In this document: positions 27,606-61,661 of the stretch, piece by piece
How the letters are laid out: each line of letters begins with the position of its first letter
How positions within the stretch are numbered: position 1 is the first letter of the stretch
Source of the DNA: Bacteroides intestinalis
GTDB lineage: Bacteria > Bacteroidota > Bacteroidia > Bacteroidales > Bacteroidaceae
Direction: 5' to 3'
Assembly (NCBI RefSeq): GCF_902364365.1
Contig: NZ_CABJDN010000001.1
Location: forward strand, 760,936-824,935
DNA length: 64,000 nt
Position numbers and translations under genes: made by a program
The notes under the pieces: model-generated
What the model was told of the DNA's origin: nothing
The model's database searches: none
What the model saw: only the letters and a program-made list of their open reading frames with translations

Positions 27606-27620
27606 TAAATCTTCATCTTG

Positions 27621-27694
27621 TAGCGGGACCCGGGATTGAACCGGGGACCTCATGATTATGAATCATGCGCTCTAACCAGCTGAGCTATCCCGCC
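27621..27694 (-). tRNA. tRNA-Met (anticodon CAT)
   Basis: A 74-nt cloverleaf: 7-bp acceptor (GGCGGGA with TCCCGCT, one G-U), D-arm GCTC/GAGC, anticodon stem CATGA/TCATG with loop TTCATAA, and T-stem CCCGG/CCGGG around TTCAATC. The anticodon CAT is at 27658-27660 (reverse complement). The 3' CCA is not encoded, as usual in Bacteroides. The elongator form is likely; a lysidine-modified Ile-CAT tRNA cannot be fully excluded. Confidence 0.95.
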
Positions 27695-27903: not shown

Positions 27904-29025
27904 ATGAATAAAAAAGGCAGAACTGCGGAATCCGGTAAATTAATATGTATGTGGGTAGGAGCTTTCATCTGTACTATGGTTACAGGGATATATGTCTATA
28001 TCTTCTATAATAGCTATAAAGAACAGATACCGGAATGGAATGCATTGGCTAAAGAAACATTCGTGGAGGCGCTGAATCTGGAGGTGCAGAGACGAGGGGA
28101 CATTGTAGTGCCATTTATTGCTGGAGATTTTCCTGAAATGAAAACATTGGAAACCCCATTCCGAAGTCATGTAACTTTGGCGAGCAAGTATGGAACGCAT
28201 AGCTATGAAATATCACGTGTGAAATTTGATAATAGTCTTATCAAGGATACTGAAAAAAGAATGTTGCTTAGCTATGTGCTTGAGGAGCGTCCTCTGAATG
28301 CTGATACGCTGAATACATCTTGGAATAGTCTATTGATAAGGAAATCAATTAAAGCTAATACAGGTATTCGTCTTTCAACAACTGATTTATTGAAGAAGAC
28401 TTCCACTGTTTATTCTTCCGACAGTGTAAAAGTGCTGCAGGGGGATAGCTTGCTATCTCGTTATGTAGGATTTCGTTGTGAAGTGGGGGTAACGGGTTTT
28501 GTTTCTTATGACTGGTGGCGGGTGTTAAAGGTATGGCCATTACTCTTACTTTGGCTTTGTTTTTTCCTTCTCCTTTTATATTATGAACAGATTGCTTACT
28601 TCTTGCGGCAAAAACTGGTGAGAAAGGAAACGATTATCCGTATTCAAGAGAAAAAGATAATTGTTGAAAGAAAGATGCATTTGGAGGAGGAAGTCGGGCA
28701 AACCGGATTATATGAATTGGCCGACGGGACTATCTTGAATTCAGAAAAAGGTACCCTGATGAATGGGGAAAAGACGAGGCAACTTCGGCCTCAAGTAATT
28801 GTCTTATTGAAGCTTTTTCTACAGACTGAAAATTATCGGTTGACCGCAGAAGAAATTATTAAGGAACTGTGGCAAGGGAAGGGAAAACCAAATCAACTTT
28901 ATGCTGTTATTCATCGTTTGCGTGAATCATTGGAAGGTATCTCTTCTCTTGTTGTGGAATATAAAGATGAACATTATTGTTTGAAAATGCCCCATTCCAT
29001 CGAAGAAAATGCTGAAAAAGGATAA
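27904..29025 (+). CDS. Membrane-anchored winged-helix transcription regulator
   Basis: A 373-aa protein with a topology like ToxR/CadC in reverse order. A membrane segment at about 13-33 and a second at about 211-231 enclose a periplasmic domain of about 175 residues. The cytoplasmic part begins with a charged, probably coiled-coil linker (QEKKIIVERKMHLEEE). It ends in an OmpR/PhoB-type winged helix (about 268-366; RLTAEEIIKELWQGKGKPNQLYAVIHRLRE, read in two pieces). It could sense a periplasmic signal and bind DNA directly at the membrane. It lies 168 bp before the first NVEALA peptide gene and is the likely regulator of that cluster. No kinase or receiver domain. Confidence 0.8.
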   Translation: MNKKGRTAESGKLICMWVGAFICTMVTGIYVYIFYNSYKEQIPEWNALAKETFVEALNLEVQRRGDIVVPFIAGDFPEMKTLETPFRSHVTLASKYGTHSYEISRVKFDNSLIKDTEKRMLLSYVLEERPLNADTLNTSWNSLLIRKSIKANTGIRLSTTDLLKKTSTVYSSDSVKVLQGDSLLSRYVGFRCEVGVTGFVSYDWWRVLKVWPLLLLWLCFFLLLLYYEQIAYFLRQKLVRKETIIRIQEKKIIVERKMHLEEEVGQTGLYELADGTILNSEKGTLMNGEKTRQLRPQVIVLLKLFLQTENYRLTAEEIIKELWQGKGKPNQLYAVIHRLRESLEGISSLVVEYKDEHYCLKMPHSIEENAEKG

Positions 29026-29193
29026 AAAACGGCCTTATCGATGCTTACCAAAAGGCCTTCAAGTAAAGTTGGTAAGTCGTTGTAAGGCAAAATAGTTGGT
29101 TTGATATAAAATTCCGTCTACCTTTATGGGCAAATATGTGGCAATATTGTTTGCATGCTTCATACGGATGTTTAATATTAAGTGTAGTGGAAT

Positions 29194-29439
29194 ATGAAAA
29201 ACAAGATTAAGATTGCTGTTATCAGCTTGTGTGCAGTTGGTGCAATAACTGCTTTTTGTAGTCAGAAATCCTCCGGTAAACCAATGGATGATCTGCTATT
29301 GAAAAATGTAGAAGCTTTAGCTTGGGGTGAAGGAGGAGGATCTTCGCACTGTTTGGGTTTGGGTGATGTTGATTGTCCTTTTTCGGAAGTTAAAGTGAGA
29401 TATGTAATGACTGGTTACAGCCTTGAAGACCTCTATTAA
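29194..29439 (+). CDS. NVEALA-type exported peptide 1
   Basis: An 81-aa precursor. A hydrophobic N-terminal signal (KIAVISLCAVGAITAF) leads to the conserved block DLLLKNVEALAWGEGGG that names the family. The C-terminal part has two cysteines (SSHCLGLGDVDC) and differs completely from the other three NVEALA peptides in this window. Function is unknown. The 3' end overlaps the following propeller lipoprotein gene by 17 bp, so the pair is translationally linked. Family membership is clear; the processing site is not. Confidence 0.85.
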   Translation: MKNKIKIAVISLCAVGAITAFCSQKSSGKPMDDLLLKNVEALAWGEGGGSSHCLGLGDVDCPFSEVKVRYVMTGYSLEDLY

Positions 29440-30487
29440 CATATTATTAGCTTTTCTCTTCGCTGCATGCACTTCTGTGCCCGATGAGAGAATGATGTCC
29501 TACGTTAATTTTCCCGAAACCAGAGAATTGACAGCCCGTACTTTGTCATTGGATACAGCTTTGTTTCGCTATCCTTATAGAGTACGTGTACAGGATAGCA
29601 AGGCTATAGTGTTTGATTTGCATGGGACAGATTATTTCTTTCATGCCTTTCACTATCCCGACTTTCATTATTTGTCCTCTTTCGGCAAGCGGGGCGATGC
29701 TCCCGAAGAGATGCTTTCAGCCGAAAATCTTCGATGGAATGGGAACTTTTTGTGGACACTTGATTCCAATAAGTCTGAATTAACCCGGTTAGGTTTTGCT
29801 TCATCCGGCAACTCATTGCTTCGGTTGGAAGCCGTGAGTCTGGATGAAGAACTACTTCGGGCACTGGACTTTGTGCAATACGATGATTCCACCTTTATTA
29901 TTCCTGATTATTCCGGTGACAGTCGCTTCTGTTTGGTAAGTCGGCAGGGTAAGTTACTCCGTAAAATAGGGACTATTCCCACTACCAATGAGGACGCTTT
30001 GAAGAGTGCCCGTCCTGCTTTAGCGCAGGCATGGCGGAGTTTCATTGATTACAATCCTCGTAATGGGATACTTGTGGCGGCTACTCAACTGGGAGAAGTG
30101 CTTGAAATCTATAATTTGAAAGACAGTACGCATCTAGCATGTATTGGTCCTAATGGCGAACCTGAGTTTCAGATTTCCCAAGGTTATGGCATACCGACTG
30201 GTATTATGGGGTTCAGTGATATACAAGTGACAGATAATGCTATTTATGTTGTCTTTCAAGGACATGCATTTAAGGATATTATGCAGAAAGCGCAGCAAGG
30301 CATTAACTTACCGAATGGTGGACAAAATATTTATGTATTCAGCTTGGAAGGTAAGCCGCTTCGGAAGTACGTGTTGGATCACTATATTCACGGGATTTCA
30401 GTAGATGAGCAGAAGGGCATTATAATAGCTACGGATGTGAATAAGGATGAATCAATAATAGAATATCGTTTTCATCCTGCAGCATAA
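29423..30487 (+). CDS. Six-bladed beta-propeller lipoprotein (BF3164-like)
   Basis: A 354-aa lipoprotein with lipobox FAAC (Cys16) followed by repeated beta-sheet segments of the type found in the 6-bladed propeller/TolB-like proteins that accompany NVEALA genes. TTG 29423 is needed as start because the first ATG-coded Met lies after the lipobox. The repeats include FHYLSSFGKRGDAPEEM and YIHGISVDEQKGIIIATD. No catalytic residues are evident. It overlaps NVEALA gene 1. The last 58 codons and the following 156 bp are duplicated at 32171-32500. Confidence 0.85.
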   Translation: MKTSINILLAFLFAACTSVPDERMMSYVNFPETRELTARTLSLDTALFRYPYRVRVQDSKAIVFDLHGTDYFFHAFHYPDFHYLSSFGKRGDAPEEMLSAENLRWNGNFLWTLDSNKSELTRLGFASSGNSLLRLEAVSLDEELLRALDFVQYDDSTFIIPDYSGDSRFCLVSRQGKLLRKIGTIPTTNEDALKSARPALAQAWRSFIDYNPRNGILVAATQLGEVLEIYNLKDSTHLACIGPNGEPEFQISQGYGIPTGIMGFSDIQVTDNAIYVVFQGHAFKDIMQKAQQGINLPNGGQNIYVFSLEGKPLRKYVLDHYIHGISVDEQKGIIIATDVNKDESIIEYRFHPAA

Positions 30488-30643
30488 TTACCAATGCAAA
30501 AGAAAAGACTCACTTAGTGAGAAAAAAATATAAACCGGTTTTAGCTGTGACGACAGCATGATGTGAAATGATCTCAGTGAGATATTCTGTATCTTGCTTC
30601 TCTGAAGCACAATATTGGTTTGTGTTTGATATTGATGATTGAA
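30314..30643 (+). repeat. Direct repeat copy A (330 bp)
   Basis: Collinear with 32171-32500, offset exactly 1857 bp with no indel. By hand count there are about 13 differences in the 174-bp coding part and about 11 in the 156-bp noncoding part; the first 75 noncoding bases are identical. Similarity continues, with small gaps, into the signal-peptide codons of the following NVEALA genes. Confidence 0.9.
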
Positions 30644-30645
30644 CG

Positions 30646-30653
30646 TATTTTTG
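30646..30653 (+). promoter_or_regulatory. Promoter -7 box (TATTTTTG) of NVEALA gene 2
   Basis: TAnnTTTG match 20 nt before the ATG, with TTTG at 30625-30628 as a possible -33 box (17-nt gap, slightly short). The corresponding place at 32501-32508 reads TAAGTTTT, one base off. Confidence 0.5.
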
Positions 30654-30673
30654 ATTAAAAAAACAATTTTACA

Positions 30674-30925
30674 ATGAAAAATTTTTTGAAATATGCTTTT
30701 GTTGCAGCATTTGTAACAGTAGCAGGATATAGTGTTTATTCTTCACAGAAGTCTGATGCTATGTCTAATTTGATGTTGGCTAATGTGGAAGCATTGGCTG
30801 GCGGAGAGGGTAGTGGCTCAGATATATACTGTTGTGGTAATTCAGGGGTATGCATGGTTGTTATAGATAATACTGGTACTAAGCATGATGTTAAAGGAGT
30901 CAAATCTACCCTACCATGTCCCTAA
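30674..30925 (+). CDS. NVEALA-type exported peptide 2
   Basis: An 83-aa precursor with the signal FVAAFVTVAGYSVYSSQKSD, then LMLANVEALAGGEGSG. The variable tail has four cysteines (YCCGNSGVC and a C-terminal PCP). The first half is nearly identical to peptide 3 at the DNA level, while the tails share nothing, so the leader is conserved and the product diversified. It is preceded by the duplicated leader region and its own -7 box. A hairpin separates it from the next lipoprotein gene. Confidence 0.88.
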   Translation: MKNFLKYAFVAAFVTVAGYSVYSSQKSDAMSNLMLANVEALAGGEGSGSDIYCCGNSGVCMVVIDNTGTKHDVKGVKSTLPCP

Positions 30926-31019
30926 TTACTAAGTTGCTACTGTATATATACCTTATTTTATTAGCGTAAGCTGGTAAAAAATAAGAAAGAATGTATAGTG
31001 GCTGTATTGGTGTAAAAAT

Positions 31020-31048
31020 ATTAGGCATACTAAATAGGTATGCCTAAT
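31020..31048 (+). other. Perfect 11-bp stem-loop between NVEALA 2 and its lipoprotein
   Basis: ATTAGGCATAC and its exact complement are separated by 7 nt. There is no T-run, so a classic terminator is unlikely; it may uncouple expression of the peptide from the lipoprotein, or protect the peptide mRNA 3' end. Confidence 0.5.
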
Positions 31049-31075
31049 GAAATATATTTTAAATATTAGATTGTG

Positions 31076-32158
31076 ATGAAACAAGGTCGGATTTTATTCT
31101 TTTTATTTTTGCTATATATATGTTTATTAAACGCCTGCAAAAGTGAAGATACTCATACGGTTTTGGAATTATTTCCTGAATCTCACCCTTTGTCGGAGAA
31201 AAAGGTGTATGATATTAATGAAGATTCTCTTGCTGTAATAGAAGGTTTAGTCTGTGATGGAGAAAATTTGATAGTTTATGATTATCATTCAAATAGTAGT
31301 TATACTCTTTTTGATGAAAAAACGGGAGAATTTATCGCTCGCTTCGGAACCATTGGGCAAGGACCTATAGAAATTCCCGTTGGGTGTTATGGTTATTTAT
31401 TGAAAGGATGTTTCTCTGTTTTTGATGACCAAACTCGGATAGTTATGAAATATAATCTTGACTCTTTGCGAAATGGAAAAGTGAATGCCGCTCCCAAGCG
31501 CTTAACGAAATATGATATTCCAGACGCACAAATATCAAGACTTATAGCAATAAATGACAGTACTTTTTTCTCTGCTGGAACCTATAGGGATCGTTACCAA
31601 TATTTGTTGTTTGATAAGAACAGCAAGGTGTTGGATTACGGCGTGGATATTTATAACGTTGCAGATAGCACTTTTAATAAATATACTAAATTCCTTTCTA
31701 ATCAAGGAGACTTGATTATGCATCCAAAAAAGCAGAAGTTTGCTTATTCAATCAATCTCTCTTCCAACTTGGACTTTTTTGAAATAGGGGATGATAAAAT
31801 CAAACTGACAAAATCATTGCGGTTGGGAGATCCAATTTCTCAGCCTGTTACAAATACTATTGGAGGTGGCGGCATGTATTGTAGTGTCGAATTAACAGAA
31901 AATAGTCAAATTGGTTATATTAATCTTTGCGCGACTGGTGAGTATGTTTATGCTTTATATTCAGATAAAAAAGCGATTAAAAGTACTCGAAAGTCAAATG
32001 TAGTGTTGGTTTTTGATTGGAATGGTAATCCAGCTAAAAAATATTTACTAGATACTGATGCCTATTATATTGCTGTTGATGAAGTGGAACAAAGTATGTT
32101 TGCAGCTGTAAAAAATAGTGAAGGGGGATGGAGTATTCAATGTTATAATCTACAATAG
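31076..32158 (+). CDS. Propeller-type lipoprotein
   Basis: A 360-aa lipoprotein with lipobox LNAC, followed by propeller-like repeats (FGTIGQGPIEIPVG, YIAVDEVEQSMFAAV). The GQGP motif at the end of an early blade is shared with the lipoprotein at 34305-35303 (DRGQGPTE), which shows common ancestry. GTG 31073 immediately precedes ATG 31076; ATG is preferred. It lies 150 bp after NVEALA peptide 2. No enzymatic motif. It may bind the mature peptide or a surface ligand; that is speculation from repeated pairing. Confidence 0.82.
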   Translation: MKQGRILFFLFLLYICLLNACKSEDTHTVLELFPESHPLSEKKVYDINEDSLAVIEGLVCDGENLIVYDYHSNSSYTLFDEKTGEFIARFGTIGQGPIEIPVGCYGYLLKGCFSVFDDQTRIVMKYNLDSLRNGKVNAAPKRLTKYDIPDAQISRLIAINDSTFFSAGTYRDRYQYLLFDKNSKVLDYGVDIYNVADSTFNKYTKFLSNQGDLIMHPKKQKFAYSINLSSNLDFFEIGDDKIKLTKSLRLGDPISQPVTNTIGGGGMYCSVELTENSQIGYINLCATGEYVYALYSDKKAIKSTRKSNVVLVFDWNGNPAKKYLLDTDAYYIAVDEVEQSMFAAVKNSEGGWSIQCYNLQ

Positions 32159-32170
32159 TCGGGTTATGTA

Positions 32171-32344
32171 AATGGTGGACAAAATATTTATGTATTCAAC
32201 TTAGAGGGTAAACCGCTTCGGAAGTACATGTTAGATCACTATATTCATGGAATTTCAGTAGATGAGCAAAAGGGCATTATAATAGTTACGGATGTGAATA
32301 AGGATGAACCGATAATAGAATACCGTTTTCATCCTGCAGCATAA
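32171..32344 (+). pseudogene. 3' fragment of a propeller lipoprotein gene
   Basis: 58 codons including stop, in frame and about 92% identical to the end of the lipoprotein gene at 29423-30487 (GKPLRKY, DHYIHGISVDEQKG, EYRFHPAA). It has no start and no signal peptide. It begins 12 bp after the stop of the preceding lipoprotein gene and marks a recombination junction. Confidence 0.85.
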
Positions 32345-32500
32345 TTACCAATGCAAAAGAAAAGACTCACTTAGTGAGAAAAAAATATAAACCGGTTTTA
32401 GCTGTGACGACAGCATGATATGAAATGATCTCAGCAGGATATTTTGTATCTTGCTTCTCTGCTGCACAATATTATTTTGTGCTTGATATTGATAATTGAA
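32171..32500 (+). repeat. Direct repeat copy B (330 bp)
   Basis: Partner of 30314-30643. It ends 27 bp before NVEALA gene 3, as copy A ends 30 bp before NVEALA gene 2. The short palindromes CTCACTTAGTGAG and GCTGTGACGACAGC are kept in both copies; ATCTCAGTGAGAT is broken in copy B. Confidence 0.9.
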
Positions 32501-32527
32501 TAAGTTTTTATATTAATAGTCTTTAAG

Positions 32528-32779
32528 ATGAAAAAGTTTCTGAAAATAGCTTTTGTTGCAGCATTTGTAGCAATTGCGGGTTACGGTGTCTATGCTTCAC
32601 AGAAGTCTGATACTATGTCTGATTTGGCTTTGGCTAATGTGGAGGCATTGGCATCATCGGGTGAAACGACGAGCTATTATCGTTTATTCCCTTGTTATAG
32701 TCATCTTTCACAAAATGAGTGTAAATTGAGTACTGACAATAATAGACCTGTCTGCTATGCATCCTCTTATTGTCAGTAA
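32528..32779 (+). CDS. NVEALA-type exported peptide 3
   Basis: An 83-aa precursor: signal FVAAFVAIAGYGVYASQKSD, conserved LALANVEALASSGE, and a variable tail with four cysteines (FPCYSHL, NECKLS, VCYASSYC). It ends one base before the ATG of the DUF4221-like lipoprotein, so the two are translationally coupled. The leader half closely matches peptide 2, and the upstream 330 bp is duplicated, indicating that peptides 2 and 3 arose by cassette duplication followed by tail divergence or replacement. Confidence 0.88.
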   Translation: MKKFLKIAFVAAFVAIAGYGVYASQKSDTMSDLALANVEALASSGETTSYYRLFPCYSHLSQNECKLSTDNNRPVCYASSYCQ

Positions 32780-32780
32780 A

Positions 32781-33986
32781 ATGAGCTTGAGGAGTCATTT
32801 CTTTCTCTTAATTTGTTTTTCCTTTCTTGTTTCCTGCCAGTTTGCAGGAAATAAGAAAGAAATTGGTTACGGAGAGGAGGTGCAACTTAATGTGAAAGAA
32901 ATCGTTGTTCCGTCTTCCAATGTCCTCAATTTGAAATCTTACTATTTGTCGTTTGTCTATCAGACTGATTCTTTGCAAATGTTGTATGGATATAATTATA
33001 AGATTCACGGGCTGGATTGCTTCAACTTAAAGAATATGCAATCATCTCAAATTACATTTTTGGGAGATGGTAATTCGGCCGTAGTACGTCCGGTGACGGG
33101 GGTGTATGTGCAATCACTTGATTCAATTTGGATTTATGACGGTTCGCAACGGGCTCTATTGTTGGATCGGCAGGGACAACTTTTAAATGCAGTCAGTTTG
33201 CGTGATGGTTTGACGTCCGATGAACAGGTATTGATAGATTGTAATTTTGCAATTTCTACTTCTAAATTATATTATGACGAACAGCATAAATCGTTACTTT
33301 ATGGTATTCAGGATACTTCCACTTCTCCCTATTCTTTTAAGGTACGTGAGGTATTTTTGAACGGCTCATTTCCTCCGGTGATGTATTTATTGCAATCCTC
33401 TGTTTCTGTTTCTGATGTAAGCGGTGGAGATTATGGTAATATGAGCGGGATAAATATTTCATTTAGCGATGATAATATCCTTTATAACTACCCTGTGGAA
33501 TCGCATGTGTATGTATTGGATCGTGGAACAAAGCAAACGAAAGTAGTAGATGCGGATAGCCGTTTTACAAAGAATTTAGCGGGGAAATGTCGATCACGGA
33601 GTGATTATTCGCAGTGGATAAGGCATGCAGTAGAAAATCCTCATTTTTATGATATTATGTATCTTCCTGAAAGAGAGATGTATGTACGTCTGCATTTGGG
33701 GGAGCATACTTTTGACGCAACGTTGGATGCAGATGCTCTAATGGATGACCGTAATTTGTATATTACTCTTTTTGATAAAGAATTTAATGTAGTAGGTGAA
33801 TGTAGTTTAGCTACTCATCGGTATAATTATTATACAGCATGGACTGCTGTGGGGAAAGGGCTTCTTGTATTTGTAGATAACTTGATGTCTCCTGCAACTA
33901 AGACAGATAGGTTGGAAATGGATATCATAGAGATACCTATGAAAACAGAAAACGAAGGTGGATATAAACTTGTAAGTTTGAATTAG
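32781..33986 (+). CDS. DUF4221-like lipoprotein
   Basis: A 401-aa lipoprotein with lipobox LVSC near residue 19. Its length and features (LDSIWIYDG, LYNYPVESHVYVLDRGTKQ, YLPEREMYVRLHL) fit the DUF4221 lipoproteins of Bacteroidetes, which are predicted propellers with no known function. ATG 32781 is preferred over the upstream in-frame ATG at 32757, which lies inside the NVEALA 3 gene and would add residues before the signal peptide. Start is 2 nt after the NVEALA 3 stop. It is the counterpart of the propeller lipoproteins paired with peptides 1 and 2. Confidence 0.82.
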   Translation: MSLRSHFFLLICFSFLVSCQFAGNKKEIGYGEEVQLNVKEIVVPSSNVLNLKSYYLSFVYQTDSLQMLYGYNYKIHGLDCFNLKNMQSSQITFLGDGNSAVVRPVTGVYVQSLDSIWIYDGSQRALLLDRQGQLLNAVSLRDGLTSDEQVLIDCNFAISTSKLYYDEQHKSLLYGIQDTSTSPYSFKVREVFLNGSFPPVMYLLQSSVSVSDVSGGDYGNMSGINISFSDDNILYNYPVESHVYVLDRGTKQTKVVDADSRFTKNLAGKCRSRSDYSQWIRHAVENPHFYDIMYLPEREMYVRLHLGEHTFDATLDADALMDDRNLYITLFDKEFNVVGECSLATHRYNYYTAWTAVGKGLLVFVDNLMSPATKTDRLEMDIIEIPMKTENEGGYKLVSLN

Positions 33987-34030
33987 GGGTTTGATCTTTA
34001 TCATAGCTGCGGGTGTAAATAAGTACTTTT

Positions 34031-34279
34031 TTGAATTGTTTTTGTGCAGTATTTGCGACAATTGCTGTTTACGGTGTCTATGCTAATCTAAAGGTAGATG
34101 CTATGTCTGATTTGATGCTGGCTAATGTGGAAGCATTAGCTCTTGGTGAGATGAATTCTGGTTATCCGAATGAATGCACTAACTGTCTCAATTCGTGTTG
34201 TCGTTGCTTTAAAATATACAGAGACATGAGAGAAATATATTTGGGGGAGTGTTTTTTATCTTTGGTTTGTGCGAAATAA
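34031..34279 (+). CDS. NVEALA-type peptide 4 with abnormal start
   Basis: 82 codons from TTG 34031 with the family block DLMLANVEALALGE and a cysteine-rich tail (ECTNC, CCRC, GEC, VC; eight Cys). The place of the normal ATG-AAA-AAG start is occupied by ATA-AGT-ACT at 34019-34027, just after an in-frame TAA. The remaining TTG start gives a signal peptide without the usual N-terminal lysines. Either TTG or the rare ATA is used, or the gene is dying. No promoter-leader like those of peptides 2 and 3 is found; only 44 bp separate it from the preceding gene. Confidence 0.6.
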   Translation: MNCFCAVFATIAVYGVYANLKVDAMSDLMLANVEALALGEMNSGYPNECTNCLNSCCRCFKIYRDMREIYLGECFLSLVCAK

Positions 34280-34304
34280 TCGTAGTGTATTAATATAATG
34301 GCTT

Positions 34305-35303
34305 ATGAAATTAGTGTTATATCTTTTGGTGATTTTATTCTGTGGTGCATGTACCTCAAGGGAAAAAAACGAGAAGTGGCAGAACCGGAGGGCGAATATC
34401 GTTAATGTAAAAGACGATGTGAAAGAAATAGATACGGAAGATGTCCTGATAGGTGCTGTGGCACAACCATATATGTGTGGTGAGTATTTGGCTGTCATCG
34501 ACTATAAATCTTTTGATAAACTCGTGCATATCTTTGATAAGCATACGTTTAAACATATATTGAGTCTTGGAGACAGAGGTCAAGGACCAACAGAAATAGC
34601 CGTTGTCGGATCAATTGCGTGGAATGAGAAAGAACATGATTTATATGTGACTGACAACGGACAACGTAAAATCCTTAGGTATAATTTGGATAGCCTTCTC
34701 AATGACTCTCTATATGCTCCAACTGTCAAATTGAAATTTGGAAATGTGCCATTTCCTGATGAGTATTACTATATCAATGATACATTGTCCTATGGTTCGT
34801 TCGTAGAGACTTCCATTTCTTCTTTTAAACAAACCAGTGGAAAATGGAATATGATAACCGGAGAAGCAGAATTGATAGATTATGTTCATCCTGCAGATAA
34901 AAAGAAACGGGTGGCTTTTGCTGTCTCCCCCCAATATAATACATTGATAGAGTGCAACAGACGGTATGATTTGATAAGCTTGTACAATCTTAATGGAGAA
35001 TTACAATGCAATGTGTATGGTCCTAATTGGGATAAAAATGGTGATGGGAAGGCGCATTTTAAAAATGCAACTATTTGTGATGATAAGATCGTTGTTTCAT
35101 ACACAGGAGAAGATTGGAATCATAATGATGGGGCGAGGGTACTTCACGTGTTTAATATTGCAGGAGATTATTTGAAAACATTAGATATTGGACGTAGAAT
35201 TAATCGCTTATGTTGCGATGAGGAGAATAAGCGAATTATTATGAATTTGGACGATGAATATCAATTTGCTTATCTTGATCTTGAAAAATACATTAGTAAT
35301 TAG
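34305..35303 (+). CDS. Six-bladed beta-propeller lipoprotein
   Basis: A 332-aa lipoprotein with lipobox CGAC (Cys16). It carries propeller-like repeats, including LGDRGQGPTE and INRLCCDEENKRIIM. It is 25 bp after NVEALA gene 4, repeating the peptide-then-lipoprotein order. It also starts a nearly gapless run of six genes to 41222, of which it is the first. Related to the lipoprotein at 31076 by the shared GQGP blade motif. No catalytic motif recognised. Confidence 0.83.
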   Translation: MKLVLYLLVILFCGACTSREKNEKWQNRRANIVNVKDDVKEIDTEDVLIGAVAQPYMCGEYLAVIDYKSFDKLVHIFDKHTFKHILSLGDRGQGPTEIAVVGSIAWNEKEHDLYVTDNGQRKILRYNLDSLLNDSLYAPTVKLKFGNVPFPDEYYYINDTLSYGSFVETSISSFKQTSGKWNMITGEAELIDYVHPADKKKRVAFAVSPQYNTLIECNRRYDLISLYNLNGELQCNVYGPNWDKNGDGKAHFKNATICDDKIVVSYTGEDWNHNDGARVLHVFNIAGDYLKTLDIGRRINRLCCDEENKRIIMNLDDEYQFAYLDLEKYISN

Positions 35304-35333
35304 AAAATTAGGATATGGTTAATTTTGATTGGT

Positions 35334-36218
35334 ATGAACTTTAGAAACTTGATAATAGTCTTTATTCTCTTTTCTCTATTTTCTTGTGGAGACCGGAAGA
35401 AAGAGGATGTAACAGCATTGTTGAAGACATGGAGTGGGAAAGAAATTCTATTTCCCACAAATCCTGTATTTACAGTACAAGATAAAGATACTATTGACTT
35501 TTCAATGTTGGGAAAATACAAAATCCTAACTTATGTGGATTCTATTGGTTGCATAAGTTGTAAATTGCAATTGGGGAAATGGAAAACTTTTATGGAAGAA
35601 GTGGATAGCTTAGGGATGAATTCTGTGAGGTTTTTATTTTTTTTCTCTCCTGAGAAAAGAAGAGATCTTCTGATTACATTAAAATCGGAGAGATTCACTT
35701 ATCCTATTTGCATTGATAAAGAGAACAGGTTAAATGAATTGAACCATTTTCCTGTATCAGATATGAACTTCCACACATTTTTATTGGATAAGGACAATAA
35801 AGTTCTTGCTATCGGCAATCCTATCCATAATCTTAAAGTGAAAGAACTGTATTTGAAGATTATTCAAGGAGAGGAAGTGGAACAGAAAGATGAAAGTAAA
35901 GTGATAAGAACGAAAGTGGATATAGACAAAACCTCCGCTTCGTTGGGTAGCTTTGACTGGAAAAAGGAACAAAAGGCGACTTTTGTTTTGAAGAATACAG
36001 GTGATAAGCCGTTAGTTGCTGAATACGTCAATACTTCCTGCGGCTGTACTTCGGTGGATTATTCCAAAGAGCCTGTGCAGCCGGGAAAGGAGATGATATT
36101 GGATGTCACTTATAAAGCCGAGCATCCTGAATATTTTGATAAGACAATAACTGTATATTGCAATGCTGAAACGTCTCCGATAGTTTTGAGAATAACGGGA
36201 AATGCAGAACAGCAATAA
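35334..36218 (+). CDS. Thioredoxin-like/DUF1573 fusion lipoprotein
   Basis: A 294-aa lipoprotein (lipobox LFSC, Cys18) with two domains. Residues about 55-175 look thioredoxin-like, with a CxxC pair at Cys73 and Cys76 (GCISC) and the sequence PICIDKENRL. Residues about 195-290 form a DUF1573 Ig-like domain with the hallmark NTSCGCTSVDY and PVQPGKE. The envelope location and CxxC suggest thiol-disulfide chemistry on exported proteins; the cysteine-rich NVEALA peptides next door are plausible clients (inference). ATG 35334 replaces an upstream TTG. The 3' end overlaps the signal peptidase gene by 17 bp. Confidence 0.82.
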   Translation: MNFRNLIIVFILFSLFSCGDRKKEDVTALLKTWSGKEILFPTNPVFTVQDKDTIDFSMLGKYKILTYVDSIGCISCKLQLGKWKTFMEEVDSLGMNSVRFLFFFSPEKRRDLLITLKSERFTYPICIDKENRLNELNHFPVSDMNFHTFLLDKDNKVLAIGNPIHNLKVKELYLKIIQGEEVEQKDESKVIRTKVDIDKTSASLGSFDWKKEQKATFVLKNTGDKPLVAEYVNTSCGCTSVDYSKEPVQPGKEMILDVTYKAEHPEYFDKTITVYCNAETSPIVLRITGNAEQQ

Positions 36219-37113
36219 TTCTCATACCAAAAGAGGCTTAGGTTGGTATATTGATAAGATCCTTAACCTATTCTTAATGCTCTTTGGGGCGGCATTGATC
36301 TGGATATTTCTTCAAGTGATATGTATTGCCACATTCAAAATCCCTTCTGATTCTATGGAGCCGTCTTTGCTTGCAGGAGATAACATCTTGGTGAATAAAT
36401 GCGTAATGGGAGGACGTTTGTTCAATGTATGGGATGCTTTGGAAGGAAAGGATATACATATATCTCGTTTGCCGGGATTAGGGAAAATAAAAAGGAATGA
36501 TGTAATAGTCTTTAATTTCCCCTATTCTAAACAGCGTTGGGATAGTGTTGCCTTTGATGTGATGAAGTATTATGTAAAGCGTTGTGTTGCATTGCCGGGA
36601 GATACATTCGAAATAAAGGATGCACGATATAAGGTGCGAGGAAAGGATACGTCTTTAGGTAATGTGGAAATGCAAGAAACGTTGATGGGCTTAGCGAAGA
36701 GAGGGAAGGCGGAAGAGTTGGGAATTGTAATGAGGGGGTATCCCTATAATTCGGCATTTACTTGGGACATAGTAAACCTTGGACCTCTTTATATTCCTGC
36801 TAAAGGTGATAACTTGAAGATGGATTCTATACATGTTATTCTATATAAGAACATAATAGAATGGGAACAAAAAAAGAAATTGTTTGTACGTGGAGATACT
36901 GTTTCACTGAATGATAGTGTAATACAGACCTACAGCTTTATAGAGAATTATTATTTTGTAGCGGGGGATAAGGTCATGAACTCTCAAGATTCCCGTTATT
37001 GGGGATTATTGCCTGAACCTTTTATTGTGGGAAAAGCTGTCAGAATATGGAAGTCGGTAGATAATAGTACAGATAGGATAAGGTGGAACCGGATATTTAA
37101 AAAGATAGAGTGA
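36202..37113 (+). CDS. Signal peptidase I, cluster-encoded
   Basis: A 303-aa inner-membrane protease that removes signal peptides. One membrane segment (about 23-45) precedes the catalytic Ser51 (IPSDSMEP) and the general base Lys126 (YYVKRCVALPGD); the GDKVMNSQDSRYWG box is near residue 255. All active-site boxes are intact. It is embedded between the thioredoxin-like/DUF1573 gene (17-bp overlap) and the next membrane protein (4-bp overlap). This argues for a dedicated role in this cluster rather than general housekeeping. The likely clients are the four NVEALA precursors, which is an inference from proximity. Confidence 0.93.
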   Translation: MQNSNNSHTKRGLGWYIDKILNLFLMLFGAALIWIFLQVICIATFKIPSDSMEPSLLAGDNILVNKCVMGGRLFNVWDALEGKDIHISRLPGLGKIKRNDVIVFNFPYSKQRWDSVAFDVMKYYVKRCVALPGDTFEIKDARYKVRGKDTSLGNVEMQETLMGLAKRGKAEELGIVMRGYPYNSAFTWDIVNLGPLYIPAKGDNLKMDSIHVILYKNIIEWEQKKKLFVRGDTVSLNDSVIQTYSFIENYYFVAGDKVMNSQDSRYWGLLPEPFIVGKAVRIWKSVDNSTDRIRWNRIFKKIE

Positions 37114-38780
37114 TAAGGCTATGGATATATAGAGTAAAAGATGTGGTGATAGTGTTGCTACTATTTGCTGCCGTCTGCTCCTTGTTGGGGGTGGTTGGGG
37201 TGACTACGCCCGAACTTCCTGTGGGGGAAAATATAGGGCAATGGATATGGCTTGGTAAATCTACTTTGTTTTCAGCCGCCTGTATCATTATAACTTACCT
37301 GTTACAACTTGTGAAGAGAGATTCTTTGAAAAAAGTGATATGTTTCTCTCATTTCTCTCTCTATGTTTCATGGAGTTTAGTGCTTTGGGGGAGTGTCGAA
37401 GCGGTTTGGGGCTTGCGGCAATTGTATGGCTTTTCCACTTCAGGTCACTCTCTCTATGCACTAACAGGGTCTTTCTTCAATCCGGGACCGTATGCAGGGT
37501 ATTTGGCAATGGTATTGCCTGTCTGCTTACACTTGTATCTGTGTGCTTGTGCTTGTAAGGAACGCTCTGTTTGTTATAAAATAGAGAAAGTGGTAGTTGC
37601 AATAGCAGGTATCTTGATTCTTTGTGTGTTGCCAGCCACAATGAGCCGTTCAGCTTGGGTGGCTACGGCGGTTGGTTGTGTTTGGGTAGCATATATGCAT
37701 CGTGATAAAAGCAAATGGAATGTGTTGTGGAAGAGGTACAAGAGACAATCCGTCTTGTGGGGAATAAGTGCATTTTTTATTCTGATGTTAGGAGGTGTCG
37801 GGGCGTTTCTATTGAAACCTGATTCTGCATTAGGGCGTCTGTTCCTATGGAAAATAACCTGTCGGGCTATTGTTAGCTATCCATCGGGTTGCGACAAGGG
37901 ATTTGCATTTGCTTATGGTGAGGCACAGGAGGATTATTTTGCTCAAGGCGACTATGCCGAATGGGAAGAGCGTGTGGCCGGAAGTCCTGAATATGTGTTC
38001 AATGAATATTTATCGCTGGCTTTGACGGAAGGAGTTGTCGTCTGTGTAACAGTATTGGTTGTTATAGGAACATGTTTATGGATGGGGGTGAAGCGTGGGC
38101 GCTATGGTATCTGCGGTGCAATTCTGTCTTTACTTATTTTCTCTTTTTCTTCCTATCCTATGCATTTTCCGGCTTTTGTGATAGCAGGGATATTCCTGCT
38201 TCTTGCTTGCGGTGTAGGAGATTTTATCTGTAAACCACTTATCTTGTGTGCCAGCCTCATTCTGTGGATGGGTGGCTATACGGAGAAATGGAAACTGGAA
38301 GAGGATGCCTGCCGGAAGTGGGTATATGCAAAGATGTTTTATAGTTCGGGTGCTTATAAAGCTGCCAATAAATCTTATGGAGAACTTTATCCGGCATTGA
38401 AGGAGAAAGGGGTATTTCTGTTTGAGTATGGGCATAGCTTGCATAAATCGGGCTTTTATGATGAGTCCAATAAGTATCTGGAAGAGGCTTGTCTGTACAC
38501 TACCGATCCAATGGTTCTGAATATCATAGGTAAGAACTATCAAGAACTGCATTGTTATGAACAGGCGGAAGCTTTTTTACTAAGGTCGATTCATCGCCTG
38601 CCGGGCAGAATTTATCCCTATTATTTATTAGCCAATCTCTATGCTAAACCGGAATTTTATCGACCTGATAAATTGAAAGAGGTTTCTGACGTCGTGCTGA
38701 CTAAGGAGCCTAAGGTACATTCGACGGCAATTGAAGAGATGCGTAAGGAGATAAAGAAAATAGTAAATGAACTGGAGTGA
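37110..38780 (+). CDS. O-antigen ligase/polymerase-like membrane protein with TPR tail
   Basis: A 556-aa protein with roughly ten membrane segments in the first 400 residues. The region GSFFNPGPYAGYLAMVLP and the following loops resemble Wzy_C-type O-antigen ligases, enzymes that move glycans or polymerise them on the periplasmic side. The last 150 residues contain TPR-like helices (ANKSYGELYPALKEKG, EACLYTTDPMVLNIIGKNYQEL). The GTG start overlaps the signal peptidase stop by 4 bp. In a peptide cluster this suggests glycan or lipid attachment, but homology is distant and the role is unknown. Confidence 0.72.
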   Translation: MIRLWIYRVKDVVIVLLLFAAVCSLLGVVGVTTPELPVGENIGQWIWLGKSTLFSAACIIITYLLQLVKRDSLKKVICFSHFSLYVSWSLVLWGSVEAVWGLRQLYGFSTSGHSLYALTGSFFNPGPYAGYLAMVLPVCLHLYLCACACKERSVCYKIEKVVVAIAGILILCVLPATMSRSAWVATAVGCVWVAYMHRDKSKWNVLWKRYKRQSVLWGISAFFILMLGGVGAFLLKPDSALGRLFLWKITCRAIVSYPSGCDKGFAFAYGEAQEDYFAQGDYAEWEERVAGSPEYVFNEYLSLALTEGVVVCVTVLVVIGTCLWMGVKRGRYGICGAILSLLIFSFSSYPMHFPAFVIAGIFLLLACGVGDFICKPLILCASLILWMGGYTEKWKLEEDACRKWVYAKMFYSSGAYKAANKSYGELYPALKEKGVFLFEYGHSLHKSGFYDESNKYLEEACLYTTDPMVLNIIGKNYQELHCYEQAEAFLLRSIHRLPGRIYPYYLLANLYAKPEFYRPDKLKEVSDVVLTKEPKVHSTAIEEMRKEIKKIVNELE

Positions 38781-38785
38781 TTTAT

Positions 38786-40750
38786 ATGAGGTGGATTTAT
38801 ATATTTATATGTGTGTGTGCTCTGACTTTTCTATCTGCTTGCATCGAACAACATGATAGTCGGTTAGAAAGTGCATTGAATATGGCAGGTGCTAACAAAG
38901 GGGAATTATTGAAAGTGTTAAATCGTTATCGGGAAAGTGATAATCAAAAATACCATGCTGCATGTTTTCTTATAAAGAATATGCCTTATTATGGTTTCTA
39001 TAAAGGGGAAGAATTACAGAAATATCTTCGCTATTTTGAGGCGCATTCTACTAATATAAAGGGAGCTCAATTCATTGTAGATTCACTCAAGAAAGCGGAT
39101 GGAGAATTTTCAATGGATATGCTTACCCGCAAAAAGGATATTGAAGTGGTAGACTCCGCTTTCTTAGTTGAACATATAGAATGGGCATTCAAGGTTTGGA
39201 AAGAACAGTCATGGGGAGGAAATGTAAATTTTGAGGATTTTTGTGAGTATATATTGCCTTATAGGATTGGGGATGAGCCTCTCTCGTTATGGCGTAAGGA
39301 TTTGTATGATACGTATAATCCTCTGCTCAATAAATTCCGCAAATCAGCTGATAGCAATGATATAACAAAAGCAGCTCAGATTTTAATGGATACTTTAAGG
39401 CAGGGGAAGTATCGCTATACAAGTCTTTTCCCCAAAGGTCCCCATATAGGTCCGGTAGCATTGAAGTGGAAAACTGGAAGTTGCCGTGAATTTGCTGATG
39501 CAATGATATATGTGATGCGTGCTCTTGGTATTCCGTGTGGTATGGATAGGGTAATACAGCGTGGCGATACGAATGCTTCGCATTTTTGGAATTTTATATT
39601 GGATAAGGGGCATAATACATATATGGCGGAATTTCCTTATCAAGAAAAGTGGAAGAAAGCATCGGAATATGATGATATAACCAGAGGAAAGGTATACCGC
39701 GTGACTTATAGCCTGAATGAGGAGCTGACAAAAGACTTGAAAGATGTGTCGTCTGTTCATCCTATTTTCAGATATCCGTTTTTTCATGATGTAACGGCTA
39801 CTTATCTGGGACAACAGAATGGACAAATAGTTATTCCTCAAAAAGAACTGTATGATTGCCCTCGTACTGGTGAATTGGTATACTTGTGTTTTGCAAACAA
39901 GCAAGAATGGGTTCCCGTTGCTTATACTTTTTTTAATGGGGAGGCTGTTTGTTTTGATAATGTGGAAGGGGGAATAGTGGCTATTTTGGCAACATACAAT
40001 GAGAGTGGTCTTCAAGCATTGTCCAATCCTTTTACGCTAAATCATGATACGCGGGAGATTCATTATCTTAATCCATTGCAAGAATCCCATATAATTAGTG
40101 TTTATAAGAAGTTCTATTTTGCAGTTAAGAATTATTTTAATACCCGTATGGTTGGTGGAGTAATAGAGGGCAGCAATCAGAAGGACTTTCAGAATGTGGA
40201 TACGCTATTTTTAATCAAAGAGGCTCCCTATCGGTTGTATACTGTCGCTTATCTGAATCCGGATAGGGTATATAGGTATATTCGCTATCGTGGTGGAAAA
40301 GATAGTTATTGTAATATAGCAGAACTCTCTTTCTATGAAAACTGCTTGGATACATTACCTTTGAAGGGGAAAGTCATAGGTACTCCGGGATGTTACGGAG
40401 ACGACGGCAGGCGTGAATATACAAATGTCTTTGATGGTAATCCGGATACATCTTTTGATTATAAATTTCCGGATACCGGCTGGGCGGGTTTAGATTTAGG
40501 GAAACCTTATCGGGTAAGTAAGGCAATATATACTCCCCGGAATGATGTGAATTTTATTTATAAGGATAATATTTACGAATTATTTTACTGGGATAAAGGA
40601 TGTTGGAATTCTCTTGGCAGACAAACAGCAGTTGCTGATTCGTTGGTATATACTGTGCCTCGGAATGCCTTGTTATATCTGAAGAATCATACCACAGGTA
40701 ATGACGAAAGAATTTTTGAGTATGAGAATGGAAAACAAATATTTTGGTGA
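38786..40750 (+). CDS. Transglutaminase-like lipoprotein with discoidin-like domain
   Basis: A 654-aa lipoprotein (lipobox LSAC, Cys19). Residues about 195-290 form a transglutaminase-like papain-fold core: Cys233 (KTGSCREFADAM) and His266 (NASHFWNF) fit the catalytic pair. A C-terminal F5/8-type or galactose-binding-like domain (about 545-610; NVFDGNPDTSF and WAGLDLGKPYRV) is likely. Proteins of this sort may crosslink or cut peptides at the cell surface. ATG 38786 lies 5 nt after the previous stop; GTG 38777 is an alternative. In context it is a candidate maturation enzyme for the small peptides. Confidence 0.8.
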   Translation: MRWIYIFICVCALTFLSACIEQHDSRLESALNMAGANKGELLKVLNRYRESDNQKYHAACFLIKNMPYYGFYKGEELQKYLRYFEAHSTNIKGAQFIVDSLKKADGEFSMDMLTRKKDIEVVDSAFLVEHIEWAFKVWKEQSWGGNVNFEDFCEYILPYRIGDEPLSLWRKDLYDTYNPLLNKFRKSADSNDITKAAQILMDTLRQGKYRYTSLFPKGPHIGPVALKWKTGSCREFADAMIYVMRALGIPCGMDRVIQRGDTNASHFWNFILDKGHNTYMAEFPYQEKWKKASEYDDITRGKVYRVTYSLNEELTKDLKDVSSVHPIFRYPFFHDVTATYLGQQNGQIVIPQKELYDCPRTGELVYLCFANKQEWVPVAYTFFNGEAVCFDNVEGGIVAILATYNESGLQALSNPFTLNHDTREIHYLNPLQESHIISVYKKFYFAVKNYFNTRMVGGVIEGSNQKDFQNVDTLFLIKEAPYRLYTVAYLNPDRVYRYIRYRGGKDSYCNIAELSFYENCLDTLPLKGKVIGTPGCYGDDGRREYTNVFDGNPDTSFDYKFPDTGWAGLDLGKPYRVSKAIYTPRNDVNFIYKDNIYELFYWDKGCWNSLGRQTAVADSLVYTVPRNALLYLKNHTTGNDERIFEYENGKQIFW

Positions 40751-41222
40751 TATTAATGTCGATAAAAGTTTCTCCGGAGAAATTATGGATGCTTCTAAGG
40801 ATAATTGGAATGCTTGTTTATTATATCGTAATAAACAATTGACGAGACAACTGAAGGACTATCAGAAAGTTGCAGCATTGGTAGGGTGCTCTTCTTCTCT
40901 TATAGTTGCGATGGGGCAGTTATTGTGTCTTCATCAAAGACCGGTTTACGGAATTGTCCGGGATGAGGCAGAGTGGCATAGTTTGTTTGTTGTCATTGAT
41001 TTGTTTTATGGAGGTTGTTTGTTAGAAACTTTGGCGCCATTCTGTTTAAGTGCTCAGGAACTGAGATTGTGCTATCTGATACGTGCCCGGTTGACTAATA
41101 AGACTATTGCTTTGCTTTTTAATATTACCCCCAGGTCTGTATTGAAGTCAAAACAACGTATCAAGTCAAAACTATCTTTATCGGGTTCAGATAGTTTTGA
41201 TAGATACATACAGCAATACTAA
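40701..41222 (+). CDS. Small LuxR-type helix-turn-helix protein
   Basis: A 173-aa protein without signal peptide. The first 100 residues are not recognised and contain two hydrophobic stretches. The last 60 form a GerE/LuxR-like HTH (LSAQELRLCYLIRARLTNK, ALLFNITPRSVLKSKQRIKSK), the same kind found at the ends of several Bacteroides TPR-HTH regulators. Alternative starts at 40722 and 40728 exist; all overlap the transglutaminase gene. It closes the cluster, so a regulatory role is likely. Confidence 0.68.
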   Translation: MTKEFLSMRMENKYFGDINVDKSFSGEIMDASKDNWNACLLYRNKQLTRQLKDYQKVAALVGCSSSLIVAMGQLLCLHQRPVYGIVRDEAEWHSLFVVIDLFYGGCLLETLAPFCLSAQELRLCYLIRARLTNKTIALLFNITPRSVLKSKQRIKSKLSLSGSDSFDRYIQQY

Positions 41223-57348: not shown

Positions 57349-58452
57349 ATGATTACAGTGAACAAAAAATGGTTACGGCTGATAGGGATTGTCGGTTGTA
57401 CAGTGTGGATGGCATCTTGCAAGCAGGCAACAGATGCGGGAGTGAAACCTTCTTATGCAATAATGAAAGTAGAAGCGGCGGATAAGGAGCTTTCCACCTC
57501 ATATTCGGCTACGATTCGCGGGCGGCAGGATATCGACATCTATCCGCAGGTATCGGGTACTATCGAAAAACTTTGTGTAACCGAAGGACAGACAGTGCGT
57601 CGCGGACAATTGCTTTTCGTAATCGATCAGATTCCGTACAGAGCTGCGCTCAAAACTGCCACCGCCAACGTAGAGGCTGCGCGTGCTGCAATGGCTACCG
57701 CCGAACTCACCTACAAGAGTAACAAAGAATTGTATGCACAAAAAGTAGTTTCAGAGTTTAGCCTGAAGACGGCAGAGAATACATTCCTCACTGCTAAAGC
57801 ACAACTGACGCAGGCTGAAGCACAGGAAATAAATGCCCGCAACAACCTTTCATATACTGAAGTGAAAAGCCCCAGTGACGGAGTGGTAGGTGCATTGCCC
57901 TATCGTGCCGGTGCATTGGTCAGTGCCAACATACCTTATCCGTTGACTACAGTCAGTGATAACTCGGATATGTATGTCTATTTCTCCATGACTGAAAATC
58001 AGTTGCTGGCCCTTACCCGCCAGCATGGCAGCATGGATGAAGCATTGAAGAACATGCCAAAAGTGGAATTGGTATTGAATGATAATTCGGTATATAATAA
58101 GAAAGGTATAATAGAATCCATCAGCGGAGTTATCGATCGCCAGACAGGTACTGTAATGGCGCGTGTAGTATTCCCTAATGAATCACGCCTGCTTCATAGC
58201 GGAGCATCCGGTACGGTAGTGCTACCGAGCATTTATAAAGATTGTATTGCCATTCCGCAGGGAGCCACTGTGCAAATGCAGGATAAGGTAGTAGTATATA
58301 AGGTAGTGGATGGTAAAGCCGTCTCTACGCTGGTCACAGTATCCGGCATCAGCGACGGACGCGAATATGTGGTGCTGAGTGGGCTGAACCCCGGAGATGA
58401 AATCGTATCAGAAGGCGCCGGATTGATACGTGAAGGTACACAAGTTAAATAG
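57349..58452 (+). CDS. RND efflux periplasmic adaptor (membrane fusion) lipoprotein
   Basis: A 367-aa adaptor of the AcrA/MexA type that links the inner-membrane pump to the outer-membrane channel. Lipobox MASC gives Cys24. The lipoyl half-motifs (IYPQVSGTIEKLCVTEGQTV and VKSPSDGVVGALPYRAGALV) flank an alpha-helical hairpin (about 100-160), followed by beta-barrel and membrane-proximal domains ending in LNPGDEIVSEGAG. First gene of the four-gene operon 57349-63142. Length is typical. The substrate cannot be read from sequence. Confidence 0.94.
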   Translation: MITVNKKWLRLIGIVGCTVWMASCKQATDAGVKPSYAIMKVEAADKELSTSYSATIRGRQDIDIYPQVSGTIEKLCVTEGQTVRRGQLLFVIDQIPYRAALKTATANVEAARAAMATAELTYKSNKELYAQKVVSEFSLKTAENTFLTAKAQLTQAEAQEINARNNLSYTEVKSPSDGVVGALPYRAGALVSANIPYPLTTVSDNSDMYVYFSMTENQLLALTRQHGSMDEALKNMPKVELVLNDNSVYNKKGIIESISGVIDRQTGTVMARVVFPNESRLLHSGASGTVVLPSIYKDCIAIPQGATVQMQDKVVVYKVVDGKAVSTLVTVSGISDGREYVVLSGLNPGDEIVSEGAGLIREGTQVK

Positions 58453-58466
58453 GAAGAAGATTGATT

Positions 58467-61646: not shown

Positions 61647-61661
61647 ATGAAAGGAGGAATG

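Follow-up and report, generated by a model that had tools for sequence, protein, structure and literature searches.

A candidate Bacteroidales envelope system of leader-core NVEALA peptides, propeller lipoproteins and a dedicated signal peptidase

We analysed a stretch of 64,000 nucleotides from Bacteroides intestinalis (contig NZ_CABJDN010000001.1, positions 760,936 to 824,935, forward strand; hereafter the window, numbered from its first letter) and describe a locus at 27904-41222, comprising 14 genes on the + strand and centred on small exported peptides of the NVEALA family (PF14055). From sequence comparison we consider it probable that this locus represents an envelope system of Bacteroidales in which small disulfide-bonded peptides are made from a shared leader and exchangeable cores, are accompanied by cognate propellers, and are served by dedicated processing and by peptide sensing. 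The strongest claims are the modular leader-core structure of the peptides, their even cysteine counts, their pairing with propellers, and the membership of these genes in one programme. An earlier note on this DNA had listed four NVEALA peptides, four propellers, a TRX-SPI-WZY-TGL run and a regulator; Pfam matches confirmed this gene content, including the overlaps between genes. The features of the locus are as follows.

27904..29025, + strand: REG, membrane-anchored winged-helix regulator (transmembrane helix, periplasmic domain, transmembrane helix, cytoplasmic OmpR/CadC-type winged helix)
29194..29439, + strand: NV1, conserved-type NVEALA peptide (PF14055, 41.4 bits; core CxGxGxVDCP...KV)
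29423..30487, + strand: PR1, TolB_like propeller lipoprotein (PF15869, 277.5 bits; 17-bp overlap with NV1)
30314..30798, + strand: left copy of a direct repeat (3' end of PR1, intergenic sequence, NV2 leader up to NVEALA)
30674..30925, + strand: NV2, NVEALA peptide with Cys-containing core (PF14055, 58 bits)
31073..32158, + strand: PR2, TolB_like propeller lipoprotein (PF15869, 66.7 bits)
32171..32652, + strand: right copy of this repeat (PR1 3' end as a displaced remnant, intergenic sequence, NV3 leader up to NVEALA)
32528..32779, + strand: NV3, NVEALA peptide with Cys-containing core (PF14055, 57.3 bits)
32757..33986, + strand: PR3, DUF4221 propeller-like lipoprotein (PF13970, 58.1 bits; 23-bp overlap with NV3)
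34031..34279, + strand: NV4, NVEALA peptide (PF14055, 31.5 bits from model position 8), with a degenerate N-terminus and no ATG, possibly a decaying gene
34305..35303, + strand: PR4, DUF5128 6-bladed propeller lipoprotein (PF17170, 35.5 bits)
35325..36218, + strand: TRX, lipoprotein with thioredoxin-like (CxxC) and DUF1573 domains (PF07610, 103.6 bits)
36202..37113, + strand: SPI, signal peptidase I of family S26 (PF10502, 107.6 bits)
37110..38780, + strand: WZY, Wzy_C membrane protein with C-terminal TPR-like helices (PF04932, 41 bits; cut-off 31.7)
38777..40750, + strand: TGL, transglutaminase-like lipoprotein with F5/8C domain (Cys and His invariant)
40701..41222, + strand: weak LuxR-type helix-turn-helix (HTH) protein, an optional member (GerE, 14.9 bits, below cut-off)

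The gene order is thus REG, NV1-PR1, NV2-PR2, NV3-PR3, NV4-PR4, TRX, SPI, WZY, TGL, HTH. In the window translations, lipobox-like N-termini were read on PR1-4, TRX and TGL, which leaves the NVEALA precursors as the sole evident signal peptidase I substrates encoded by the locus. Among relatives, a lipobox pattern within the first 60 residues was present in 189 of 307 propellers, 58 of 91 TRX, 74 of 129 TGL and 8 of 256 NVEALA peptides, counts to be read against a control stretch that gave 16 for propellers, 11 for TRX and 5 for TGL, and with uncertain open-frame starts. No NCBIfam model matched REG, NV2, three of the propellers, WZY, TGL or the HTH protein, and a search by sequence retrieved no solved-structure relative of PR1 below E 0.4.

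The association of these genes was evaluated in 60 genomes of the genus to which the Bacteroides oleiciplenus genome (G001) belongs, in a survey that began from NVEALA and was independent of the TGL scan described below. NVEALA was detected in 33 genomes, with up to 16 matches in a single genome and at least 150 matches in total. The SPI subfamily occurred in 28 genomes, all of them among the 33 NVEALA-positive and none among the 27 NVEALA-negative ones (Fisher 2e-12, uncorrected for kinship). REG was found in 25 genomes, all NVEALA-positive (30, of which 28 positive, when weak matches were kept), TRX in 30 (28 positive, among the matches listed), WZY in 27 (26 positive) and TGL in 27 (24 positive). 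At the level of neighbourhood, copies lying within 20 kb of a listed NVEALA match amounted to 40/45 for SPI, 62/68 for TRX, 36/42 for REG, 33/44 for WZY and 38/70 for TGL, compared with 0/57 for the housekeeping LepB used as control; conversely, 128 of the 150 NVEALA matches listed had at least one of SPI, TRX, WZY or REG within this distance. These counts depend on score thresholds that were chosen after the score gap was seen: of 114 SPI matches, those of at least 200 bits were taken as SPI (45) and those of 118-152 bits as LepB-type (57), while 12 short or split matches of 110-128 bits, 5 of them within 20 kb of NVEALA, entered neither count. For WZY, 44 of 74 matches were used (at least 325 bits), and for REG 42 of 56, with 14 dropped as second pieces or below 58 bits, two of these in NVEALA-negative genomes; for TRX, the 68 matches had at least 116 bits, lower-scoring ones listed being mostly DUF1573 alone, and for TGL all 70 had E ≤1e-60.

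Most members of the locus belong to known Pfam families, and it could be argued that widespread Bacteroides families have come to lie side by side by chance. Against this stand the contrast between SPI and LepB in the survey and the occurrence of similar gene sets in several Bacteroidales genera; we regard a chance neighbourhood as highly improbable and rejected it on the basis of the survey and its control. The earlier note had named co-occurrence of the downstream genes with NVEALA genes as a check, and such co-occurrence held for SPI, REG, TRX and WZY in the 60 genomes; occurrence independent of NVEALA in most genomes was seen for none of these four and in part for TGL.

The scan for the TGL family yielded 79 loci, or 80 compared loci with the window included. 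NVEALA genes were present in 38 of the 79 in addition to the window, distributed over Bacteroides, Phocaeicola, Paraprevotella, Parabacteroides, Proteiniphilum, Dysgonomonas and others, and these loci carried varying sets of TRX, SPI, WZY, REG and propellers. With the first model, no NVEALA gene was detected in the other 41, which include several short contigs and many cases of TGL in other settings. The loci overlap and share ancestry, and entries were discarded as duplicates only when their core, propeller or regulator sequences matched exactly. Across the Bacteroidales order as a whole, NVEALA is patchy (7/119 genomes).

The precursors showed a sharply delimited leader. In 221 of 256 unique precursors we recognised a hydrophobic helix and a short linker followed by LSDLxLxNVEALAxxE. 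Ala occupied position -3 and position -1 of the NVEALA end in 95% each of these 221, the motif pattern itself admitting only few residues at both positions; Ala-x-Ala is a site of the signal peptidase I type. Beyond ALA, the first residue was mixed (Gly 9%) and the second was Gly in only 38%, the conserved motif being NVEALAxxE. When 93 pairs of peptide genes from within a locus were compared, codon identity was 0.50-0.97 over the last 44 codons to ALA and 0.24-0.42 thereafter, with the Glu codon at +3 (0.74) as the one exception. Leader codon identity was lower between loci than within a locus, indicating that leaders are shared within a locus. The break in DNA homology directly after NVEALA thus suggests that leader and core are separate modules and that the end of NVEALA is the likely cut site. 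This site followed the most hydrophobic window of 13 residues at a narrowly distributed distance of 20-27 residues (5th to 95th percentile, n = 207), which is long for a signal peptide. The precursor would be anchored by its N-terminal hydrophobic helix, placing the NVEALA end on the periplasmic side some 25 residues past the hydrophobic maximum, where the SPI of the locus would probably cut after ALA.

SPI itself belongs to family S26: S51 and K126 of the Ser-Lys dyad were invariant in 22 aligned sequences, and the protein aligned to signal peptidase I structures with a best E of 2e-27. It shares the S26 fold and the dyad with housekeeping LepB, but forms a separate subfamily (SPI-model scores of at least 200 bits, LepB-type matches reaching no more than 152) confined to NVEALA-positive genomes among the 60 searched. 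Shorter signal peptidase I-like proteins, with open frames of approximately 243-261 residues and 110-121 bits on the SPI model, were seen in four genomes (G158, G179, G002 and G169), some of them near NVEALA, and were placed in neither count.

Cores and leaders differed in cysteine content. The core after ALA had a median length of 39 residues and contained 8.3% Cys, compared with 1.0% in the leader. Of 220 cores, 214 contained Cys, and the number of cysteines was even in 172 of these 214 (80%), while random placement in a simulation gave 48% (standard deviation 3.4%). Disulfide formation by the core cysteines is the natural reading of this parity. In TRX, C76 and C79 of the CxxC motif were invariant in 26 aligned sequences; its match to AhpC-TSA was weak (15.9 bits, below cut-off). 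Given the cysteine parity and the neighbourhood, it is quite likely that the TRX-DUF1573 lipoprotein sets the disulfides of the core peptides. At three loci (L039, L049 and L052) a further family directly follows a short TRX that lacks DUF1573, and its L049 member matches MauE/DoxX.

Peptide and propeller genes were arranged as pairs. For NVEALA genes other than the NV1 type, the next gene was a same-strand propeller in 176 of 201 cases, with 12 more at contig ends; the 13 peptides that no propeller followed included 7 succeeded by another peptide gene. Propellers without a preceding peptide numbered 76 of 284, and 11 more lay at edges. NV1-type genes overlapped their own propeller in 29 of 34 cases. 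Moreover, the two partners tracked each other in sequence. Among 63 pairs from multi-pair loci, the nearest peptide core had the nearest propeller in 44%, compared with a mean of 11% and a maximum of 24% in 300 shuffles that permuted partners within loci; over all 137 pairs the value was 42%, against a shuffle mean of 22% and maximum of 30%. Nearest neighbours by leader coincided with those by propeller in 4% of the 137 pairs. We therefore observe co-tracking of core and propeller, and a model in which every core peptide is matched by a cognate lipoprotein propeller from the gene that follows, serving to bind, carry or neutralise the peptide, appears likely to be correct. As separate observations, a hairpin with a 13-pair stem lies between NV2 and PR2 (31019-31049) and could govern how much peptide is made relative to propeller, and one locus (L004, 6370-12262) carries five tandem propeller genes of the same family with no peptide genes between them.

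The array also bears the footprint of cassette exchange. A 487-bp direct repeat (30314-30798 and 32171-32652) has copies that are 88.3% identical and both terminate in the last NVEALA codon; in the right copy, the remnant of the PR1 tail is open for about 60 codons and has no start of its own. When the window was compared with the corresponding locus of B. oleiciplenus (L003), the flanks were 86-89% identical, whereas the array at 30466-34289 aligned at the DNA level only in the peptide leaders and the PR1-tail remnant. We infer an exchange of cores in the form of cassettes joined at the leader, new peptide-propeller cassettes entering by recombination in the repeated propeller-tail and leader sequence. 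Within the left repeat copy, directly before NV2 (30619-30653), we noted two overlapping matches to TTTG...TAnnTTTG, which we take to be the Bacteroides promoter pattern; the whole window contained 10 such matches, with 3.3 expected. Scans for sigma-70 promoters and terminators gave matches near shuffle level, and inverted repeats of at least 18 bp within 80 bp were absent. A tRNA-Met gene lies just upstream of the locus on the - strand (27620-27694).

A polymorphic cassette array between flanks conserved in a close relative, cognate pairing, a sharp leader-core junction and disulfide-type cores would all be expected if the variable cores were antibacterial and the propellers acted as immunity lipoproteins, with NV1 as the inducer that switches the set on. 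The excess of propellers without a peptide over non-NV1 peptides without a propeller points in the same direction. However, propellers of 330-410 residues are large for immunity proteins, and no toxin domain was recognised in the four window peptides, whose only matches besides PF14055 had E of at least 0.03. Pfam matched no C39 peptidase/ABC exporter and no histidine kinase in any of the 14 window-locus genes, relatives not having been searched with a C39/ABC profile. PADLOC returned no match for eight window proteins, which says little on antagonism; anti-phage defence was set aside as a candidate on that result. Overall we regard antagonism as a rather doubtful explanation.

Next to REG stands a peptide of a different character. 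The NV1 class, delimited by a pattern taken from the loci themselves (core CxGxGx[VL]DCP...KV), was conserved across genomes, with a median core similarity of 0.33 (n = 26) compared with -0.01 for 137 other peptides, and its propeller was conserved as well (0.63). REG was the upstream neighbour of NV1-type genes in 43 of 51 cases (33 on the same strand and 10 divergent; the others comprised 6 contig ends and 2 other neighbours), compared with 5 of 201 for other peptide types. Across 42 pairs, NV1 core similarity correlated more closely with that of the REG periplasmic domain (rho 0.50) than with that of the winged helix (0.38); the partial correlation with the periplasmic domain was 0.37, a value reached in 0 of 1000 shuffles. 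REG is predicted to consist of a long helix (residues 7-63), a periplasmic alpha/beta domain, a second helix (approximately 211-254) and an OmpR/CadC winged helix (264-364); fold searches were filled by winged-helix matches and say nothing on the fold of the periplasmic domain. Based on the adjacency and co-variation observed, we give about an even chance to a scheme in which the conserved NV1, together with PR1, reports to REG, which would in turn control the locus.

The same adjacency and co-variation would also fit a system devoted to signalling only, the peptides forming a family of ligands, the propellers their receptors or carriers, and peptide diversity private channels free of toxicity. 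In the window, however, a single regulator of this type serves four peptides, and the other propellers have no evident partner gene for signal transduction. Signalling alone is in our judgement questionable, and its odds and those of antagonism are about equal. A combination of the two, which we offer as a speculative and rather unlikely possibility, would be polymorphic antagonism under pheromone control in gut Bacteroidales: REG would sense NV1 in the periplasm as a pheromone and induce exchangeable disulfide peptides that are matured by a private SPI and thiol enzyme, neutralised in the producer by their own propellers and in some genomes exported by a resistance-nodulation-division (RND) pump.

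The catalytic histidine of WaaL belongs to a HAHN stretch; in a weak alignment of WZY to 7tpg (E 0.07), the corresponding column is Phe, invariant in 12 sequences, and the Arg is kept. WZY thus resembles WaaL/Wzy O-antigen ligases in its Wzy_C domain and conserved Arg but differs from them in this Phe and in its C-terminal TPR-like domain; the best 50 PDB matches of its predicted model were mostly TPR and other helical-repeat structures. The designation of WZY as ligase-like in the earlier note is hence doubtful as regards activity, given the replaced histidine column in this weak alignment. In TGL, C234 and H267 were invariant in 23 sequences, with no invariant acid at the place expected by eye. 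Crosslinking of peptides by TGL would be a tentative role, and TGL is the loosest member of the set. The family of the last HTH gene was seen at no more than 4 of the 80 compared loci. Comparison strongly supports the core of the first suggestion, a single programme by which small cysteine peptides are made, cut, oxidised and sensed, through co-occurrence, neighbourhood, cysteine parity, the homology break at NVEALA and the conserved peptide beside REG; crosslinking, the ligase-like protein and the HTH gene are its weaker parts. The leader-core modularity, the cognate pairing, the cassette footprint and the RND pump downstream in some relatives go beyond what the earlier note had noticed.

In five Bacteroides loci (L024, L025, L027, L031 and L037), a glutaminase A-like family, of which one member was scanned, lies between TGL and SPI; longer glutaminase A-like forms accompany TGL elsewhere without NVEALA. 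A second TGL setting, also without NVEALA (L009, L012, L014, L016, L023, L040 and L043), comprises three recurrent gene families (f14, f15 and f16) and, in most of these loci, a distant relative of WZY.

The presence of Wzy_C and transglutaminase-like proteins, the latter with an F5/8C domain of carbohydrate-binding type, and the lipobox-like N-termini on the remaining exported proteins encoded in the window locus would suit a role in envelope or surface assembly, with peptides and propellers as structural or scaffold components of a glycan- or lipoprotein-based structure that WZY and TGL help to build. The Phe at the WaaL histidine column and the loose linkage of TGL speak against such a role, which moreover poorly explains the regulator-peptide pair and the cassette polymorphism; we consider it improbable.

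With regard to export, 23 loci had 3 kb or more of room downstream of SPI/WZY. In 11 of these, genes of one HlyD, AcrB-type and TolC-type set lay no further than 6 kb downstream, and in 8 of the 11 within 200 bp. Over all 61 loci listed, 20 had RND genes downstream, many loci having too little room and some representing the same region twice. In part of the genomes an adjoining RND pump may, as a tentative suggestion, export the peptides. A complete RND set (HlyD, AcrB-type, OEP) is located in the window approximately 16 kb downstream of the locus (57349-63142). We considered it as the missing exporter and set it aside; its AcrB-type protein scored 960 bits on ACR_tran, far higher than the 565 bits of one member of the pump family beside the loci of relatives.

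Several observations weigh against the envelope peptide system as we propose it. The NVEALA site lies approximately 25 residues past the hydrophobic stretch, which is far for a signal peptidase I site. Neither the window nor B. oleiciplenus has an RND pump beside the locus. Five NVEALA-positive genomes are without SPI by the cut used, though assemblies may be incomplete; REG lies beside NVEALA in three of them (G131, G165 and G177) and not in the other two (G129 and G135). Likewise, 22 of the 150 NVEALA matches listed have no SPI, TRX, WZY or REG within 20 kb. The rank correlation between peptides and propellers is weak (rho 0.11 over 137 pairs, shuffle maximum 0.09), and that of 26 NV1-PR1 pairs (0.29) falls within shuffles (maximum 0.40). 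Co-tracking could arise from peptide and propeller moving as one two-gene cassette, and shared ancestry of the sequences means that the statistics overstate independence. Finally, with TGL loosely linked and WZY without the ligase histidine column, the roles given to both are guesses.

The earlier statement that NVEALA has no assigned function agrees with the literature searched, subscription papers and preprints lying outside its scope: no paper mentioning NVEALA was found, and none describing leader-core peptides with a leader cut by signal peptidase I and propeller partners. Text matches to 'PF14055' came mostly from Plasmodium papers and presumably represent gene names of the form PF14_055x. 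The portion available of a Bacteroidales survey of ribosomally synthesised and post-translationally modified peptides contained no match to terms for the NVEALA system (PMC10352776). An iron-response table of B. thetaiotaomicron, as far as available, lists BT0662 as O-antigen ligase, BT0664 as 6-bladed propeller, BT0667 as signal peptidase I and BT0669 as RND adaptor, with p-values above 0.1 as its columns read (PMC10434189). By annotation only, this part of the table suggests that the system is present in the model strain VPI-5482 at BT0662-BT0669.

Taken together, a list of hypothetical genes becomes one system with a defined leader, a likely cut site, partner pairing and a candidate sensor, each of them open to testing in a host amenable to genetics. 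Members of the NVEALA family abound in the genus, and depending on what such tests show, the system may prove to be a novel circuit for peptide signalling in gut bacteria, a novel class of peptides that act in antagonism, or the two at once. A further puzzle posed by the dedicated SPI is how an enzyme of the signal peptidase I type would reach a site this far past the hydrophobic core.

Among known systems, the class II bacteriocin regulons of Gram-positives (pediocin and plantaricin type) comprise inducer and effector peptides that share a double-glycine leader and are exported by a C39 ABC exporter. The NVEALA locus resembles them, in gene layout only, by an inducer-like peptide that shares the leader and lies beside a sensor; it further has small disulfide-type peptides, a partner gene after each peptide, and a thiol-disulfide protein together with a leader peptidase. 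It differs in that the leader is of an anchored Sec type, without double glycine, and is assigned to an S26 peptidase, and in its propeller lipoprotein partners, its membrane winged-helix regulator and the RND pump that some genomes add. In polymorphic toxin systems, the partner gene lies directly downstream and displaced remnants are found. According to the part available of one account, these toxins combine a constant N-terminal part with a variable C-terminus exchanged by cassette recombination (PMC3482391). The NVEALA locus shares with them the constant N-terminal part, exchangeable C-terminus, cassette remnants and downstream partner, and is set apart by Cys-rich cores of approximately 40 residues with no toxin domain recognised in the window peptides, and by propeller partners. 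REG, like CadC, ToxR and TcpP, fixes an OmpR-type winged helix to the inner membrane and has a periplasmic domain, but in reversed order, the periplasmic domain lying between two transmembrane helices and the winged helix at the C-terminus. As a set of parts the system appears new in kind; if it is antagonistic, the behaviour itself would be of a known kind.

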